Notes under the pieces: model-generated
What the model was told of the DNA's origin: nothing
The model's input: only the letters and a program-made list of their open reading frames with translations
Databases searched by the model: none
NCBI GenBank assembly: GCA_026636295.1
Contig: CP089454.1
Coordinates: 1,054,001 to 1,118,000, forward strand
Reading direction: 5' to 3'
Source: Medakamo hakoo
Lineage: Eukaryota; Chlorophyta; Trebouxiophyceae; Coccomyxaceae
DNA: 64,000 nucleotides
In this document: in pieces, positions 10,746-59,306 of the stretch
Position numbering within the stretch: the first letter of the stretch is position 1
How the letters are laid out: each line of letters starts with the position of its first letter
Program-made: the position numbers and the translations under genes

Positions 10746-11182
<437 letters not shown>

Positions 11183-15271: not shown

Positions 15272-15357
<86 letters not shown>

Positions 15358-43693: not shown

Positions 43694-45589
43694 ATGCCCA
43701 CCGCCTCACCCGCGCCCGTCCCCGCCGCCGGCCCGGCCCACACCCTCGCCGACACGCTGCGTGGCCTGGCTGAGTTGTCCACGTCGCCTTACATCGCCGG
43801 CCCGCTGTGTTTAGACGCCTGGACCTCGCGCACGGGCGAACGGCCACCCACGCATGCCGCGACGACGACGACGGCGGCGGCGACGCCCGCTGCCAGCCCG
43901 CCGCCCGGCCTGGCGGCGGCTGCATCCCACGCCGCCCGGGGCGCGGGTGTCGCGTGGTGTGCGGCCACGGCCACGCAGATTGGTGTTCAAGTCCTGTTGA
44001 GTCTGGGCGCCCTGCTCGCCCGCCCCGCCCTCACCCCGCCCGACGCCCGCCGCCCCGCTGGACGCGCGCACCCGGCCCGCCGGCTCCGGGCAGCGGCTGT
44101 GCCGGCCGCATCCTCCGCCGCCCTGACGGGTGCCGCCGCTGCTGCCGGCACGGCGGCCTGGCGCCTGATTGGTGCGGCAGGTGCGGCGGCCTCGCAGGAC
44201 GGCCGCGCCGCCCGTGCCGCTGCTGGCGCGGCGGGCGGCCTCGCGGCCGCGGCCATCCTGCCGCCTGGACCGTCCCGCCTTGCCGCCGCGTACGCTTTGG
44301 TGCGCGTCGCCCAAGCATGCGCCGGCCAAAAGGCCGTCACGGCCAGTCCACGCGCCTGGCAGCCGCCGGAGGTTGGGAGGCTGCGCCTCCCGAGCCTGCC
44401 CCACCCAGGCCTGGACGGCGCGGCCCTCACGGCCGCGCTCGCCGCCGCCGCCGCCTGGGCCGCCGTCGGCACGGCCGCCCTCCCGCCCGCGCACCCTGCT
44501 CGCCTGGTGGGTGTGTTGCTGGTGTCCCGGGCCCGGCCCATGTACGGCAGCCGGTCGGTCGCCGTCGCGGCGCGGGTTGTGGCCGCGGCTGGAGGGGGGG
44601 ATGGGGCGCCGCCCACCACCGGCCTCATCGCGCCGCACTCGCTGGCCTCCACCCGCCACCCGTGGGCCCGCGCCGGTGTGGGCCTGGCCGCGGCCTGGCT
44701 GCCCCTGTACGTGGCCGCGTCCGCGGCGCTGCCGGAAGCCGTGGCGTGGCTCGGGCGGCGGGGAGGCGCGACGACGACGGCCACGACCACCGACGCGCGT
44801 GCCGCCGCGGCCGTGCGGGCTGGGCGGTCAGCGCTCGCCGGCGTGGCCGCGGCCGCGGCTTTCTCCGCTGTTGGCGCGGGTGCTGCGACCATCTCCGCCC
44901 GCCGCCGCCGCCGCCGCGGCCTCCTGGCGGCCAGCCCGGCGACCCGGCGCATGGTCGCGGCGCTGGCCGGTGCCGCGGCCGGGTTGGCCGCCTCCGCCAT
45001 CGAACGCCGCCCGGCGTTGGCAGAAGCTGGTGTCATCGCCGCCGCAGCCGCGCTCGCGCGCGCGGCGCCAGGCGCGCCTGCGTGGGTGGACGCGGCGGCC
45101 TTGGCCGGGTGCGGCGCCATTCTGTCTGCGTGGGCGGTCCAGGCCGGCGGCCCGTACCCGAGCCTGTCCCCCGCCCCCACCCGCCGCCTGGCGCCACTGC
45201 CGGCGTCGGCCCTGGCCGCGATCGCTGGGGTCGTGCCCGGTGGGCTGCGCGGCGCGCCGCCGCCCGGCGCGTTCCCCCCGCCTCCAGCCGGCCGCGGCGG
45301 CCGCGGCTCGGTCTCCGACTGGTCCCTGGAACCCGGCGACGTGCTGGGCGGCGGCGGCGGCGAGTCCTCCTCATCATTCGAAGACTTGGGCCGGCCGTCC
45401 CCGCCGCCGCAGGCGGGGCCGAGCCGGCTCGCGCACGGGTCGCAGCCTCCGGCCACCATCCAGGCGACGACGACAGAGGCAGGTGCTGCTGCCCGCCCGA
45501 CGCCGGCGCCGCCGTCCACGGGCACGCGGCGTGCGTCGTTTGACATGGTTCCCCGGCCGGCGGAGGGGCCGGGCAGGACGGATATTTAA
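43694..45589 (+). CDS. Ala-rich multi-pass membrane protein, unknown function
   Basis: A single exon of 631 residues. Hydrophobic Ala/Val/Leu-rich stretches recur, for example ATQIGVQVLLSLGALLA, GAAGGLAAAAILPPG, AAWAAVGTAALPP and WLPLYVAASAALPEAVAWLG, suggesting about eight to ten membrane spans. The last ~120 residues are Pro/Ser-rich and hydrophilic. The sequence LVGVLLVSRARPMYGSRSVA could be a conserved loop. I recognise no family. A long antisense frame also exists, but this strand has a sensible start, a divergent promoter and a stop followed by AT-richer sequence. Confidence 0.6.
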   Translation: MPTASPAPVPAAGPAHTLADTLRGLAELSTSPYIAGPLCLDAWTSRTGERPPTHAATTTTAAATPAASPPPGLAAAASHAARGAGVAWCAATATQIGVQVLLSLGALLARPALTPPDARRPAGRAHPARRLRAAAVPAASSAALTGAAAAAGTAAWRLIGAAGAAASQDGRAARAAAGAAGGLAAAAILPPGPSRLAAAYALVRVAQACAGQKAVTASPRAWQPPEVGRLRLPSLPHPGLDGAALTAALAAAAAWAAVGTAALPPAHPARLVGVLLVSRARPMYGSRSVAVAARVVAAAGGGDGAPPTTGLIAPHSLASTRHPWARAGVGLAAAWLPLYVAASAALPEAVAWLGRRGGATTTATTTDARAAAAVRAGRSALAGVAAAAAFSAVGAGAATISARRRRRRGLLAASPATRRMVAALAGAAAGLAASAIERRPALAEAGVIAAAAALARAAPGAPAWVDAAALAGCGAILSAWAVQAGGPYPSLSPAPTRRLAPLPASALAAIAGVVPGGLRGAPPPGAFPPPPAGRGGRGSVSDWSLEPGDVLGGGGGESSSSFEDLGRPSPPPQAGPSRLAHGSQPPATIQATTTEAGAAARPTPAPPSTGTRRASFDMVPRPAEGPGRTDI

Positions 45590-46087
45590 GAGAGAGTGTA
45601 TTTAAGATGCGGGGGGGAGCCGGGAGGGATGGTTTTGTGTTGTGTTGCTGGAGCCCAGAGAGAGCGACGCCGCTAGAGGCGCGTTTCTTCTCTGCTGCGT
45701 TTTTCCCCCTCGCGTCGCATTCATCGTTTTTTACGCCGCAAAGTGCGTGAGGGAGAGAGCGCCGCTGTGAGAGACAGAGAGGCGGTGTGCGCGTGTGCGG
45801 TGGGCCGAGACGGCTGCGAGCTGCCCGTGTCGGAAGGTCGGCGCCGATGGGGCGCATGCGGTGCGCACACACCTAGCCGACACAGGCCGACAGCGGTGCG
45901 GGCACCGGCACGGTCGATCCGATCTTGCCCGCGTTCGCACGAGTACATGTCCAAGGCCCCGCCCATGATGCGTTTGCGCCGCAATGCCACTCCACACTCA
46001 CGCCCATCGCGCCCCCCTTTCTACACAGGCTCGTCGCCCTCCTCGGTCCAAATTTAGTAAACCGCCTCCAAGCTGCCCACCTTCCGC
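45590..46087. other. Region upstream of the small-peptide gene cluster
   Basis: No gene is supported in these 498 bp. It contains CTAGCCGACAC at 45873..45883, identical to the block in the CHLM-TruB promoter. GA-rich and TGTG-rich stretches are present. Confidence 0.4.
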
Positions 46088-46497
46088 ATGACGGCCCATC
46101 AGCTCACTGTGCTGGCCGCCGTGATGTTGGCCCTGCTTGCCATGGGTGAGTTGGAGGGAGCGGGAGACTGGAGGAGGGTGGAGTGGGGCGGGCCCGAAGT
46201 GCGGGAGCGCGCACCGGGGCGAGGGGCGCAGAGCGTTGCTGGCACACCCCACTCACCCCTACCCGCCGCCCCCTTTTTTTCCGTCCGCCTCACGCACGCA
46301 CACGTGCATGTCCCAACACACACACACACCATCCCCTCGCACACACTACAGCCACACCCAGCCACGCCGGTCGCTTTCAATGGGGCTGGCCGCTGCCGTG
46401 GAGTTACCCGTACACGCGCGGCCCCTGGTTGACGTATGGGTGGCGGGCGGGCCTGGGCCCGCGCGCCGGCTGGAACATCGCGCCGTACGGCGGGTGA
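46088..46497 (+). CDS. Small secreted Trp/Gly/Pro-rich peptide A
   Basis: Exons 46088..46145 and 46352..46497 give a 67-residue precursor. Exon 1 is almost only a signal peptide (MTAHQLTVLAAVMLALLAM), and the intron is phase 1 right after it. The mature part is very rich in aromatic residues, Gly and Pro: FQWGWPLPWSYPYTRGPWLT, then YGWRAGLGPRAGWNIAPYGG. The stop codon overlaps a good donor (GG|GTGAGG). A third exon from 46751, adding a few residues (CVRTR) before a stop, is possible and would mirror gene C. The next two genes on the same strand share this design. No known family is recognised. Confidence 0.65.
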
Positions 46498-47193
46498 GGG
46501 GAGTGAGGTGAGGCCGGGTGGGGGTGGCGCGTGTGCGTGCTTGGAGGGATTGTTAATTTTTTGTGTGTGTCGTGTCTCCGTGTCTCCGGTTGCATGAAAC
46601 GAACCAAAAGCGCGGGAGGGGGAGTGGTTGTTCCACTCTGCGCTTTTCACAAGACTGCCCGGCCGCCCCCGCCCACGCGCGCGCGCGCGCACGCTCACCT
46701 GCCACCCGAGCCACCGATCCCGGCCTCCCTCCGTCACCTTTTCTCAGCACAGGTGCGTCAGGACGCGCTGAGTGTCTCACGACCGCGGCTGAGCCGTGTC
46801 GGAAGGGTGCAGGGCCGCGCCGGGCGGGGCGGTTGAGACGCGGTCGCGCGCGACCGCGTCTCGCTCCCCGTCGCTCGCCCCCCGACCCGCCCATCATCCC
46901 CCTCGCCGCTTTCTCACGACCACCGGTGGGGGTGGCATGCCGGGGCTTGGTCCCGCCCGCAGCCTCGCTGACTGTAGCTGTGGTGCTGCACATGCCAGGA
47001 CAGCTAGCGGGTGTGATGCGCGCGGCACGCTGCCCGGGCTGGCGGGCGCCGCCGTCGCGTCCAATGTCGGGCCGTCGGACACAAACGGTGGCGCGGGCGG
47101 CCGCCTCCCCCACTCTCTCACGCCCTCTCTCTTTTCCCTCCCGCCCTCGCAACACGCACGCACACGGCAGGGACTGACTTAAATCAAAACACC
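46498..47193. other. Spacer between peptide genes A and B
   Basis: About 700 bp with no further firm gene. Its first part is G-rich and the part before 46750 is C-rich and ends TTTTCTCAGCACAG, so 46494-46750 could be a last intron of gene A. The rest is promoter and 5' UTR of gene B. Confidence 0.4.
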
Positions 47194-47562
47194 ATGCGTC
47201 GCCTGGCCCTGGCCTGGGCGGTGCTGCTGGCCTGGGCGGCCATGGGTGAGGGAGTGGGAGGGGGGGAGGGGGGCCATGCCCCGCCAAGTGGGACGACGCG
47301 GGGCGGGGGGGGGGGGGCTGCTCGCTCCTTTCAACCCGCACGCAGCTCTCTCACACACCCGCCATCCAAACCCACACACACACGCACACGCACAGCCCGG
47401 CCGGCGTCCGCCTTCTTCCTGCCCAAACCAGTCCCGTACCTGACTTGGGGGTTTGGCGTGAACTGGGCGATGCCGCTGAAGCCGCCTTGCCCGCCGTTTG
47501 GGCCGCCGGGCCCGCCGCCGCCTTTCTACGGGCGCAAACTGTTGGCCGCGTGGAAAAGCTAG
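47194..47562 (+). CDS. Small secreted Pro/aromatic-rich peptide B with GRKLL motif
   Basis: Exons 47194..47245 and 47396..47562 give a 72-residue precursor. Exon 1 encodes a signal peptide (MRRLALAWAVLLAWAAM), followed by a phase-1 intron. The mature part starts ARPASAFFLPKPVPYLTWGF, then has a Pro-rich stretch (PFGPPGPPPPFY) and ends GRKLLAAWKS. Gly-Arg-Lys is the classical dibasic/amidation signal of secretory peptide precursors, so FY-amide could be a mature C terminus; this is inference. The 3' UTR contains TGTAA near 47640, the polyadenylation signal used by green algae. Confidence 0.75.
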   Translation: MRRLALAWAVLLAWAAMGEGVGGGEGGHAPPSGTTRGGGGGAARSFQPARSSLTHPPSKPTHTRTRTARPASAFFLPKPVPYLTWGFGVNWAMPLKPPCPPFGPPGPPPPFYGRKLLAAWKS

Positions 47563-47795
47563 GGAGGGGGCATGAGCCTGATTCTTTTTTGATTTTTTGG
47601 TTTGGCTGGGTCCACGGGGAGGCGCGTGCGTGCTTGTGTGTGTAAATGTCCGGGTCGCGTGTTGTTGTTGAGAGAGGGGGAGAGAGAGAGTGTGTGGGTA
47701 GGGTGGATGGAGAGGCTGTGCCTCGAGGAAATTAAGGCCAACATCATCACACTTCTTTGCCGCCGGAAACACTCTTCGCCGCGCACCGCCCAAAA

Positions 47796-48501
47796 ATGCG
47801 TACCGCCTTCGTCATGCTGGCCGTCCTGGCCGTGCTGCTCTCCATTTGTACGTAGTTTGCGATGGGTGGCGAGGGCTGGCCCGCCCCGCGTCCCGCGGGC
47901 GCGGCGCCTGTGTGCGTGTTGTTTGGCGCTGCGTTTTGGCCGCAGCGTTGTTCCGCCCGCGCCTCCCGCCCGACCGCTCCTCTCTCACAAACAAGAACAC
48001 GCACGCACATCCCAATCCAAACCATAGCTGTCCAGCCGACGGAAGCGACGTGGTGGTGGTGGAACCGCCCGTGGGGCTGGGGCTGGAACGGTGAGTTTTT
48101 GGTCCAGGCATGAGCGCAGCGCATGAGCGGGCCGTCACGCTCGCATCAACGCCGGCGCAGCGGCCCATCACGGCGCGCCAGCGCTGGCTCGTACCTCAGT
48201 CTTCTTGGACGAATGGACGACCCTCTCGTTGGCAGCGGGAGCGGCGGGACCCGGCCCGGGTTGGGCCTCCGTCTGTGGATCGGCCCGACCCACGTCAGCT
48301 TCACCGCAGCGTCGGCCGTCGACCAAAAACGCCAGGGCCCCGCCTCTCGCCATCCCACTCCCCCCTCCCCGCCACACTCCGACAACTCATTGTTTCCGTC
48401 CACCATCCCCAAAAACTCTCGCAGGCGGCTGGGGCTGGGGTCCTGGTCCGTGCAACGGCTGGTGCGGCCGCAAGCTCCTCGGCCTGCCGGCGGCTGAATG
48501 A
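47796..48501 (+). CDS. Small secreted Trp-rich peptide C with GRKLL motif
   Basis: Exons 47796..47847, 48028..48090 and 48425..48501 give a 63-residue precursor. Exon 1 is a signal peptide (MRTAFVMLAVLAVLLSIS), followed by a phase-1 intron as in its two neighbours. Exon 2 has four consecutive Trp (EATWWWWNRPWGWGWNG), and exon 3 continues GWGWGPGPCNGWC, then GRKLLGLPAAE. The GRKLL block near the C terminus matches gene B. Two Cys in the mature part could form a disulphide. Both introns have GT donors and AG acceptors that keep frame exactly. No known family is recognised. Confidence 0.78.
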
Positions 48502-49030
48502 GCAGCCGCGTTGAAGCAAGAACAGACGGGCTGCCCCTGTCGTGTGCACAAACCAAACAAAAAACGCCTGCAGCAGACAAAAACGCGGCCGCAGGTGTGT
48601 TTACCCGTTTCATTTTACCTTACCGTGAATATGAAAGGCGTGTGCGAGGCGGAGCGTCCCACAGCGTCCGCGCCCGCGCCCTCTCGCCGCCCGCCGTCCT
48701 GCGGCGTGCCGCCGTAATGATGGAAAGGCGAGAGGGGCGGGCGCGTCCCCTCCAGGCGCGCCCCTTCACACCTTGTGCCTGAAAACATGAAGAGCGCGCG
48801 CGCTCGCTTCCTTCCTCCTGCCCAGGCCGCGCCCACGGCTGCTTGCAAACGCTGTTGGTCGCGGCCTGCGGACGGCAGAGGGAAAGAGCGAGGATGCCGG
48901 CCGTTGGTGTGTGTTGTGTGTGTAAACGAAACAAAAACGGCCGCACACCACCCCGGCAAGGTTGCGCCTTAAAAAAGACTTCAGCCGTCTGTCGTGTGTT
49001 GCAGTGCGCCCTCCCTCCACACCGACTCCC
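48502..49030. other. Region between peptide gene C and NAA38
   Basis: No gene is supported. The stretch includes the 3' UTR of peptide gene C, several A-rich runs near 48550 and a TGTAA near 48925. It ends at the NAA38 stop codon on the other strand. Confidence 0.4.
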
Positions 49031-49530
49031 CTATCTGTCGCCAACCGCTTCCGCCACCCGCGCCTCCATCCCCGCCCTCTCATGTTCTTCCACCTCCAAC
49101 TCACAGGCACGCCGCTGCGCGGCCGGCACAATCAGCGTGCCCAGCGCGTGGTCTCCGCCGTTGTTGGCCACCGCCCTCGCGTCCGTCAACACCACATTGC
49201 CCTGCGGGTCCAGGCAGGCGAACGTTCCCGCGATGACGCGGCCGTCCGGGACGGTGACCTGCGTGTTTTTTTTTGAGGTGTGTAAGGGAGGGAGGTTGAG
49301 AGAGCGCGGGCGCGGGCATGGCTTGGTTGTTTTGTTGAGACGACGCGCCCGCCACCCCATACCTTCAACCTCCGGCCCAGCAACTCCGCCGCTAAGCGCA
49401 GGGCGGGGTCGTCGCCCACGGGTTGCAGCGGCGCATCTTCCGCGCCGCGTTGGAGGGCGCAAAGTGGGTGTGCCGCTTGTGTTGTCGGCGCAGCGGGGGC
49501 GGGTGGAGGCGGCGCGGCGGCAGGAGGCAT
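49031..49530 (-). CDS. NAA38: LSM-domain protein NAA38 (NatC auxiliary subunit)
   Basis: Exons 49530..49363 and 49258..49031 give 131 residues. NAA38/LSMD1 is the small Sm-like auxiliary subunit of the NatC N-terminal acetyltransferase. The Sm1 motif spans the splice junction: LAAELLGRRLK joins VTVPDGRVIAGTF, followed by ACLDPQGNVVLTDARAV. The Sm2-like part is GTLIVPAAQRRACELEVE. The spacing of the two motifs and the R-A-LGTLIVP block favour NAA38 over spliceosomal LSM proteins. The N terminus is Pro/Ala-rich. It is divergent from the gene at 49705. Confidence 0.85.
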
Positions 49531-57998: not shown

Positions 57999-58704
57999 TC
58001 AGGCGGCGGTCGTCGTCGTGTTTTTGACCATCAGGACCGTGCGCATGGAATCCCACAGCAGCTTGCGCCCCTTGGCGACGTCGCACGGCACGACCTGCCA
58101 CTCCACCTCCCACCGCCCGTCGCCATTCATGGCAAAGTCGATGTCGCCATGTTTGCACTGGGGGGTTGACGAGGAGAAGCGGTGCATGGAGGGCGGGAGA
58201 TGGAAGGGGAGGGGTGCGTGAGCGCAAGGTTTTGGGTTGACGGAGAGAGACGGGAGTGAGTGGTTGGAGCGCGCGCCCTTTTTTTTCATCCAAGACGGAC
58301 AACCGGTGGCCGGTGCTCCCTGAAAGGAGGGAAGACCCTCCTGGAAGCTCTCGCACGCTAAAAAAATCATCCGCCCCTCCTCCCTCCCTTACCTCCGGGC
58401 ACAGGTTGTTGATGGCGGCATAGAACCGGGACGGGATGGGGTTGCCGCCCGCGCCCCTGCCCGACGCCGTGCCCTCGATGCACTTGCCGCAGTTTTCGCC
58501 GGCGCCGTACTGGGGAGAGTTGAGCGCGACGGTCATCAGGCCGCCGGGGCCCGTGGGCAGGCCGTTGCCGCCGCACGCGCCGCGGCCGTCGTTGCCGGCG
58601 CCGTAATACGTCGCTTCGCCGACGTACTTGGTGTACTGCGGCATGTTGTACGCGGCGGCGAACGCGGCGAGCAGGGCGAGGAGGAGGGCGCGCAGGATGA
58701 ACAT
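57999..58704 (-). CDS. Secreted expansin-like double-psi beta-barrel protein
   Basis: Exons 58704..58393 and 58157..57999 give 156 residues. A signal peptide (MFILRALLLALLAAFAAA) precedes a single double-psi beta-barrel domain: VGEATYYGAGNDGRGACGGN, MTVALNSPQYGAGENCGKCI, FYAAINNLCPE and GDIDFAMNGDGRWEVEWQVV. The early TYYG and the ACG/CGKC cysteines match expansin, barwin and GH45-like domains. The expansin C-terminal carbohydrate-binding domain is absent, so this is a single-domain form. A role in loosening or remodelling the wall is likely. It sits near a GH5 glucanase gene. Confidence 0.85.
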
Positions 58705-59306
58705 GGGTGTGAGGCTGGTGGTTGAGGGGGAGAGGAGGGCGTGAGTTTTTTTTTTTTTTTTTCCGGGCGGCCACCAGCGGGCGGGCGGCAAGGGCGGGGC
58801 GCTGACCCCCCGGCGCCGACGGCGTGTTTTTTTCCGACGAATGCGTCAGGGCCGGCCGTCGCGCCGCACGGCATCCAGCCCGATTCGGCTAGAATGCAAG
58901 CCTTCAAGCCTGCTAACGCAATTCAAGCCAAAGCCGTGCAAAATGCGGCGGCTTGCCCGCCCGCGGCGGGCGGGCAGGCAGGCCGCGCGCGCGGCGCCGC
59001 CGACCGGCGCTCCACACTCCGTCTTGGTCCGCTCTCCCGGGCAGGCCATGGGCGTCACGCCACCGTTGTGCGCCAAGGAGGCTAGATCACAGAGTGCTGC
59101 ACGCAAAGGGGTGGTGTGTGGGTCAATGGGAAAGGGGCAACGCACCGATTGGGGGGTGGACGGGGCGGGGGCGAGTGGAGGGAAGACGGAGTCTCAGTAG
59201 TGGGGAAACAAGCGAGTGGCATCGCCGCTCCCAGGCTCTCAGAACGCCCCGACCCTCTCCCGTGTGTCTCCCAGCCCTCCCTGTGGGGCTCAGCAGCCTC
59301 CTTTTT
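58705..59306. other. Region between expansin-like gene and dioxygenase gene
   Basis: About 600 bp of promoter for the expansin-like gene and 3' flank of the dioxygenase gene. It includes a T run near 58746 and a GGCTAG near 58887. No gene is visible. Confidence 0.4.

Follow-up and report, generated by a model that had tools for sequence, protein, structure and literature searches.

A cluster of three predicted small secreted aromatic-rich peptide genes in Medakamo hakoo and its C-terminal GRKLL tail

The stretch of DNA analysed here, referred to as the window, comprises 64,000 nucleotides of the green alga Medakamo hakoo (contig CP089454.1, C7:1054001-1118000, in a genome of 16 contigs and 15,638,232 bases) and contains three spliced gene models on the plus strand, designated A, B and C. 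With a probability of roughly 0.4, these are genes for small secreted peptides, rich in aromatic and free of acidic residues, which would be processed at RKLL, possibly amidated, and active at the cell surface or in the wall. A spliced coding structure, a hydrophobic core, a phase-1 intron ahead of an A-x-A-like motif and a similarity of the A and B DNA at this position are computed directly. The three-model pattern, as set out in a preliminary description of the window, is confirmed, and the interpretation attached to it is partly supported as a whole. Support for A, B and C as genes is computational and comes from sequence models.

Translation of the given exons reproduces precursors of 67 (A), 72 (B) and 63 (C) residues, exactly as initially proposed. 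All introns are of the GT-AG type; the first is in phase 1 in each of the three genes, again as originally described, and the second intron of C is also in phase 1. In a hydropathy window, applied in place of a signal-peptide program, the hydrophobic cores reach values of 2.57-3.33. The first intron had been located directly after the signal-peptide exon. Its phase holds, but the likely cleavage motifs, SHA in A, ASA in B and TEA in C, are found about 5 residues past intron 1, in exon 2. The pentanucleotide TGTAA, which we take to be the green-algal poly(A) signal, follows the B stop closely and lies 420 nt past the C stop, with none within 700 nt after the A stop; within 300 nt, it follows 11 of 80 predicted stops and precedes 0 of 78.

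The three models were scored with a self-written two-strand hidden Markov model gene finder, initialised with our own splice matrices and transition values as well as with Pfam-supported open reading frames. Held-out training excluded positions 45601-48900 and relied on 210 introns, 82 starts and 58,689 codons; the scores of A, B and C refer to the models as supplied and not to calls of the finder itself. The resulting scores are 21.7 for B, 15.0 for C and 3.9 for A. As a null, 1.2 Mb of simulated noncoding DNA yields two called genes, with scores of 3.2 and 6.6 (calls at most 100 nt from a chunk end being discarded), and no gene is called in 52,951 bp of joined and reversed noncoding DNA. The coding structure is well supported for B and C and weakly supported for A. 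Upon training on all data, the finder returns C exactly and B exon 2 with its stop, and joins A and B with a gene lying upstream; over the whole window, the held-out model likewise gives C exactly, together with a fused upstream-A-B model terminating at the B stop. The 3' end of A is uncertain, because its stop overlaps a donor at 46494, for which matching acceptors end at 46747 and 46752; the alternative form of A, ending in PYGGCVRTR, scores 1.3 vs 3.9.

A scan for the shared design, consisting of an ATG, a hydrophobic exon, a phase-1 donor, an acceptor and an open exon 2 with an A-x-A-like motif, was performed over 301,078 bases on both strands, a few of the loci overlapping. With thresholds chosen after A-C had been seen, four candidates are obtained, three of which are A, B and C, and the reversed control gives none. 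When the cleavage motif is dropped, four threshold sets return 9, 24, 35 and 62 phase-1 candidates (reversed control: 0, 1, 6 and 19), and the cluster holds three of them each time. Phase-0 candidates are commoner overall (13, 33, 50 and 101), yet 0 or 1 of them fall in the cluster. Calculated from the remaining phase-1 candidates, the Poisson chance of finding three in 2.6 kb ranges from 3e-6 to 0.002 across the looser sets. A phase-1 intron near the cleavage site is unremarkable on its own, since a general excess of such introns at this position is described in part of PMC1626468. The proposal of spliced genes for small secreted peptides is well sustained for B and C by the held-out scores and the design scan, and weakly for A.

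A and B share a direct repeat across the exon 1-intron 1 junction, in register, in which 36 of 50 positions are identical (72%). Another 278 predicted donor windows form 38,503 pairs, of which only 8 do as well, and some of these pairs probably represent one donor counted twice (the maximum is 50/50). Furthermore, none of 2000 shuffles is as good as the full-length similarity of the A and C proteins, and the same result (0/2000) is obtained for the A and B signal peptides. We take A and B to be tandem copies that have diverged; C is probably of the same origin. Of the tandem cluster originally described, common origin is therefore favoured by the junction repeat for A and B, while that of C is probable and not proven.

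The predicted mature parts, tails included, contain Trp at 6 of 42 residues in A, 3 of 49 in B and 10 of 39 in C, compared with 1.41% of the predicted coding sequence; Asp and Glu together number 0, 0 and 1. With 14 Pro among its 49 residues, B is Pro-rich instead of Trp-rich, which corrects the Trp/Gly/Pro-rich character first attributed to all three. The predicted trimmed forms have 41 (A), 39 (B) and 28 (C) residues, are devoid of Asp and Glu, and carry net charges of +4, +2 and +1. Trp richness was rejected as evidence for a gene: in the M. hakoo genome, wrong reading frames often contain open stretches rich in Trp. Open windows of 35 codons with at least 6 Trp form 76 rows over the fetched loci, some of them repeated by overlapping loci, and the best has a share of 0.30 in the predicted coding frame. 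In the window there are 14 such rows, with a share above zero only for A (1.00) and C (0.56), which are the only Trp-rich rows lying more than half in the predicted coding frame. The WGWGW codon pattern was rejected as a family probe, with 354 sites vs 295 in the reversed control.

The GRKLL motif near the C terminus of B and C is present as reported in the preliminary description, 5 and 6 residues ahead of the stop. As a rare tag judged by raw count it was rejected: the codon pattern, in which Phe may replace Leu and Ser may replace Arg, has 47 sites in the genome vs 107 in the reversed control. All 47 sites were read; 21 are exactly GRKLL, and the rest contain Phe or Ser. Ten lie in a predicted coding frame, six of these being exact. 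The only unusual feature of GRKLL is its position within coding frames: three exact in-frame sites are at most 6 residues from the stop, namely those of B, C and a secreted protein encoded on contig C12. A fourth exact site belongs to an expansin-like copy in the window, where it lies 18 residues ahead of the stop predicted for a seemingly fused model, and the remaining two, at the fetched loci L024 and L026, are internal. At L035, L041 and L059, sites occur directly ahead of a stop and outside any predicted coding frame.

The C12 protein, in which GRKLL is followed by only two residues (tail WA), has no Pfam match and weakly matches the bacterial expansin YoaJ (E 0.006). Paralogous stretches are found on C2, on C10 and in the window near 58070, where positions 57999-58714 of the minus strand contain exons similar to this secreted expansin-like family. 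The paralogues on C2 and C10 show no C-terminal GRKLL in the models obtained; the one for C2 appears to join two genes and extends past the end of the sequence. GRKLL, presented at first as a feature of the cluster, is not private to it. Because it also stands at the end of an unrelated secreted, weakly expansin-like protein, it looks like a more general C-terminal processing or sorting tail. The broader pattern [RK][RK]LL occurs in the last 15 residues of 3 of 87 predicted proteins vs 0.3 expected, a rate that is biased because the loci were fetched for GRKLL or are the cluster itself. G[RK][RK] near the C terminus is not specific, because 13 of the 87 proteins have one in their last 15 residues.

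Regarding the processing machinery, the M. hakoo genome contains a PAM gene in which PHM, with both hydroxylase domains, and PAL modules are encoded in one open reading frame (best PDB match 5wm0, E 4e-71). On C3, a further reading frame (L069) encodes an M14 carboxypeptidase like CPN/CPM/CPD (best PDB match 3mn8), and another (L048) encodes S1P with MBTPS1-specific domains (8uwc, E 3e-192); several other subtilases are present. The kexin/furin P domain (PF01483) has 0 matches in the genome at E<=1, in an exon-wise search that could miss a split domain. According to the relevant part of PMC7162652, plant SBT6.1 (S1P) prefers R-(R/K)-X-L or R-(R/K)-L-X, and a section of PMC4008260 names RKLL and RRLL as motifs at which flax pectin methylesterases are cleaved. 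RKLL fits S1P better than kexin, because it matches R-(R/K)-X-L, an S1P gene is present and kexin is apparently missing. GRK is found in B and C, and A ends in Gly-Gly, subject to the uncertainty of its end. This end would belong to a class that needs no endoprotease: in Chlamydomonas mating ectosomes, two of the three amidated products found come from C-terminal -Gly or -Gly-basic ends, with no endoprotease needed, as stated in part of PMC6919629. Amidation of the predicted B and C products is possible. The amidation originally suggested for GRK gains from PAM and the M14 carboxypeptidase and loses from the missing kexin/furin P domain and from RKLL fitting S1P as well. A copper monooxygenase reading frame with a Temptin_C domain was also encountered (L044:259-2541, plus strand, C5:913862); temptin is a mollusc pheromone protein.

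Taking these elements together in the favoured reading, the signal peptide would be removed from the A, B and C precursors. B and C would be cut at the C-terminal RKLL by an S1P/SBT6.1-type subtilase, which would remove their last 5-6 residues; trimming of the ends to Gly by carboxypeptidases may follow, and PAM may amidate them to give ...PPPFY-amide from B and ...NGWC-amide from C. A would already end in Gly-Gly. The products, of 28-41 residues with no Asp or Glu, a net charge of +1 to +4 and many aromatics, would be released to the wall or the medium and would act at the surface or in the thick wall, most likely as membrane- or wall-active peptides of defence or competition. This function is the weakest and least-supported step of the reading, and a role as wall components comes close behind. 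Indolicidin-type Trp-rich antimicrobial peptides are short, Trp/Pro-rich, basic and possibly amidated, as are A-C. Unlike indolicidin, A-C are longer, Gly-rich, weakly cationic and without a cathelicidin domain, and no cathelin pro-domain is detected in them by Pfam at E<=1.

Several observations weigh against this reading. The score of A (3.9) falls between those of the two false genes of the null (3.2 and 6.6), and neither A nor B is called as a separate gene by the finder itself; on 45001-49200, the held-out model omits C exon 1, chains the remaining exons and takes donors at 47550 and 48462 in place of the B and C stops. As for kinship, the donor windows of B-C (22/50) and A-C (27/50) are ordinary, the signal peptides are unlike for B-C (898/2000 shuffles) and A-C (126/2000), and the mature parts show marginal similarity in A-C (55/2000) and B-C (80/2000) and no significant similarity in A-B (769/2000). 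Exon 2 DNA and 5' flank DNA are without similarity in any pair, and the matches in introns and 3' DNA are short CA- or GT-rich pieces. RKLL is present in B and C and missing from A. The peptides would carry less net charge than antimicrobial peptides typically do, and the nearest relatives of C are Gly/Cys-rich secreted proteins that have no GRKLL in the part read.

These relatives emerge from the search of the M. hakoo genome, in which DNA comparison detects no other copy of the cluster. At the protein level, C gives one weak match, on C14 (E 0.06), A gives two (E 0.36 and 1.6) and B gives none. The C14 match is coding sequence in the gene model and consists of two adjoining genes with signal-peptide-like starts (C14:415870-416046 and 416369-416659). 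They carry GWNGGGCGGPGPC or NGGCGGPGPC, matching GWNGGWGWGPGPC of C (GWNGG-xxx-GPGPC), so that the signal-peptide-like start and the GGxxxGPGPC module are common to C and the pair. In shuffle tests made after C14 had been picked as the best genome match, at most 1 of 5000 shuffles equals the closer copy, and 0 and 35 of 5000 equal the other. Unlike C, the C14 pair is longer, with a Cys-rich C-terminal part and no Trp runs, and the closer copy has no Pfam match. A and B do not resemble the pair. With these relatives of C, the reading as wall proteins gains, and both the favoured reading and classical signalling lose.

The wall-protein reading, which we consider somewhat unlikely, takes A-C as small structural or extracellular proteins built into, or cross-linked in, the thick wall, with GRKLL as a tail for processing or sorting in the wall or Golgi, shared with the expansin-like protein. 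What likens A-C to hydroxyproline/Gly-rich wall proteins and to pherophorins is secretion, the thick-walled cell and, in B, PPFGPPGPPPPF. The GWNGG-xxx-GPGPC stretch that C shares with two tandem secreted Gly/Cys-rich genes points the same way, as does the occurrence of the only other in-frame C-terminal GRKLL on a secreted protein weakly like bacterial expansins; moreover, thick walls are reported for M. hakoo in part of PMC9871001. On the other hand, A-C are very short for matrix proteins, A and B are unlike the C14 pair, and none of the three matches a Pfam or NCBIfam family at E<=1, RALF, pherophorin and extensin domains being equally lacking in the Pfam search at this threshold.

Beyond M. 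hakoo, a PDB search made with C only gives one weak match (E 0.09). Nothing is found for B and C in bacterial and archaeal genomes or in viral contigs; three short viral matches to A, consisting of WLTYGWRA inside frames of 839-940 residues, were taken as chance. This absence of relatives says little, as the searches covered M. hakoo, bacteria and archaea, and viral contigs, not other algae. In the literature search, GRKLL as a whole word is without match, and no relevant work on Trp-rich secreted algal peptides is apparent judging by titles. Within the literature and family searches made, neither the sequences nor the C-terminal GRKLL that B and C have in common with the expansin-like protein appear to have been described; small secreted, processed peptides are an already known kind.

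A broader proposal, which strikes us as unlikely, is that C-terminal GRKLL is a general secretory tag, read by S1P cleavage, trimming and PAM amidation in the cluster and by the same clipping in a wall-type protein. If true, it would represent a route of peptide maturation without kexin and without cilia. Plant S1P/SBT6.1 precursors (CLEL/GOLVEN, RALF and type-1 pectin methylesterases) share the R-(R/K)-X-L site, and the protease is present in M. hakoo. They differ in that A-C have no RALF or pectin methylesterase domain and in that the site of pectin methylesterases is located ahead of the mature domain, according to part of PMC4008260, whereas in B and C it is 5-6 residues from the C terminus.

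Classical amidated signalling is distinctly unlikely. Here a convertase would cut after the RK of GRK, a carboxypeptidase B-like enzyme would trim, and PAM would amidate Tyr (B), Cys (C) and Gly (A); the peptides would serve communication between cells, comparable to the effect of GATI-amide on Chlamydomonas gametes. The Chlamydomonas PAM-substrate prepropeptides (for example Cre03.g204500, the source of GATI-amide) are, like A-C, secreted precursors in a PAM-encoding green alga with a C-terminal Gly or Gly-basic site, and related precursor-like genes can be clustered, as described in sections of PMC6919629. PAM with PHM and PAL modules, the M14 carboxypeptidase, GRK in B and C, the Gly-Gly end of A and the several other subtilases, which could cut at basic sites, agree with this account. 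However, the precursor of GATI-amide has a mass of 94 kDa and is carried on ciliary ectosomes, whereas A-C are aromatic-rich precursors of 63-72 residues. Unlike Chlamydomonas, M. hakoo is about 1 µm in size, its genome paper is silent on flagella, and no kexin P domain is found at E<=1. GRKLL also ends the expansin-like protein, which is unlikely to be a hormone precursor. Nothing speaks for the mating or signalling role put forward in the preliminary description: the main text of the genome paper has no match for sexual, mating, meiosis, flagell or cili (PMC9871001).

It is improbable that the GRKLL tail directs sorting, for example as a vacuolar C-terminal propeptide, instead of being cut by a protease; if it does, the peptides may be stored in the vacuole. 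Its location at the very C terminus of three secreted proteins, where 2, 5 and 6 residues follow, would suit such a role, plant vacuolar C-terminal signals being short and hydrophobic; however, a specific five-residue match is not expected of these loose signals. It is equally improbable that A-C do not constitute three genes and are instead the exons of one longer gene, proto-genes that recently arose de novo, or splice-like signals produced by chance in DNA of high GC content. This would accord with the common off-frame Trp-rich frames, the Viterbi paths that fuse A and B upstream or chain all three, and the weakness of A, but is opposed by a noncoding null of 2 genes per 1.2 Mb with neither score near B or C, by three starts of one signal-peptide design and by the TGTAA after the B stop.

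Table 1. Features of the A-B-C cluster (window positions) and of the genes compared with it.
Feature	Position	Strand	Description
A exon 1	46088..46145	+	signal-peptide core MTAHQLTVLAAVMLALLAM; ends in phase 1
Direct repeat, A copy	46118..46167	+	50 nt spanning A exon 1/intron 1; 72% identity to 47218-47267
A intron 1	46146..46351	+	206 nt, GTGAG...CTACAG; held-out model: donor 7.0, acceptor 8.0
A exon 2	46352..46497	+	TPSHA cleavage motif, then GRFQWGWPLPWSYPYTRGPWLTYGWRAGLGPRAGWNIAPYGG, then stop; alternative donor 46494 would replace the end
B exon 1	47194..47245	+	signal-peptide core MRRLALAWAVLLAWAAM
Direct repeat, B copy	47218..47267	+	spans B exon 1/intron 1; partner of 46118-46167
B intron 1	47246..47395	+	150 nt, phase 1
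B exon 2	47396..47562	+	RPASA cleavage motif, Pro/aromatic-rich mature part, C-terminal GRKLLAAWKS
B GRKLL	47530..47544	+	5 residues ahead of stop (tail AAWKS)
TGTAA, candidate poly(A) signal	47641..47645	+	79 nt past B stop
C exon 1	47796..47847	+	signal-peptide core MRTAFVMLAVLAVLLSI
C intron 1	47848..48027	+	180 nt, phase 1, GTACG...CATAG
C exon 2	48028..48090	+	VQPTEA, then TWWWWNRPWGWGWN
C intron 2	48091..48424	+	334 nt, phase 1
C exon 3	48425..48501	+	GWGWGPGPCNGWCGRKLLGLPAAE, then stop
C GRKLL	48466..48480	+	6 residues ahead of stop (tail GLPAAE)
Secreted, weakly expansin-like gene	C12, L096:164-1417	-	single exon, 417 residues, hydrophobic N terminus, end GGRKLLWA
Two secreted Gly/Cys-rich genes	C14:415870-416659 (L005 717-1773)	+	probably fused in prediction
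PAM open reading frame	L043, C6:1043245-1043649	-	PHM + PAL modules

The window also contains a perfect 28-bp palindrome between A and B (46835-46862), which showed up in the genome search as a match of the sequence to its own reverse strand, and long (GT)n arrays at 10748-11181 (217.5 copies) and 15274-15356 (41.5 copies). Rfam gives no noncoding RNA match anywhere in the window.

We know of no substrate that is amidated in a non-ciliated green alga. PHM or PAM genes are kept in green algae not seen forming cilia, namely Coccomyxa and Chlorella variabilis, as indicated in part of PMC6529398, and M. hakoo adds a PAM gene in an alga whose genome-paper main text has no match for flagell or cili (PMC9871001). 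In this respect, the candidate substrates provided by the cluster are small enough to be synthesised and come from a minimal alga whose genome is sequenced and for which RNA-seq (SRR19165385) and proteome data (jPOST JPST001585) have been deposited, which makes the amidation question directly testable. Finally, the presence of a GRKLL tail on secreted proteins that are otherwise unrelated suggests that a code not yet described governs processing or sorting.

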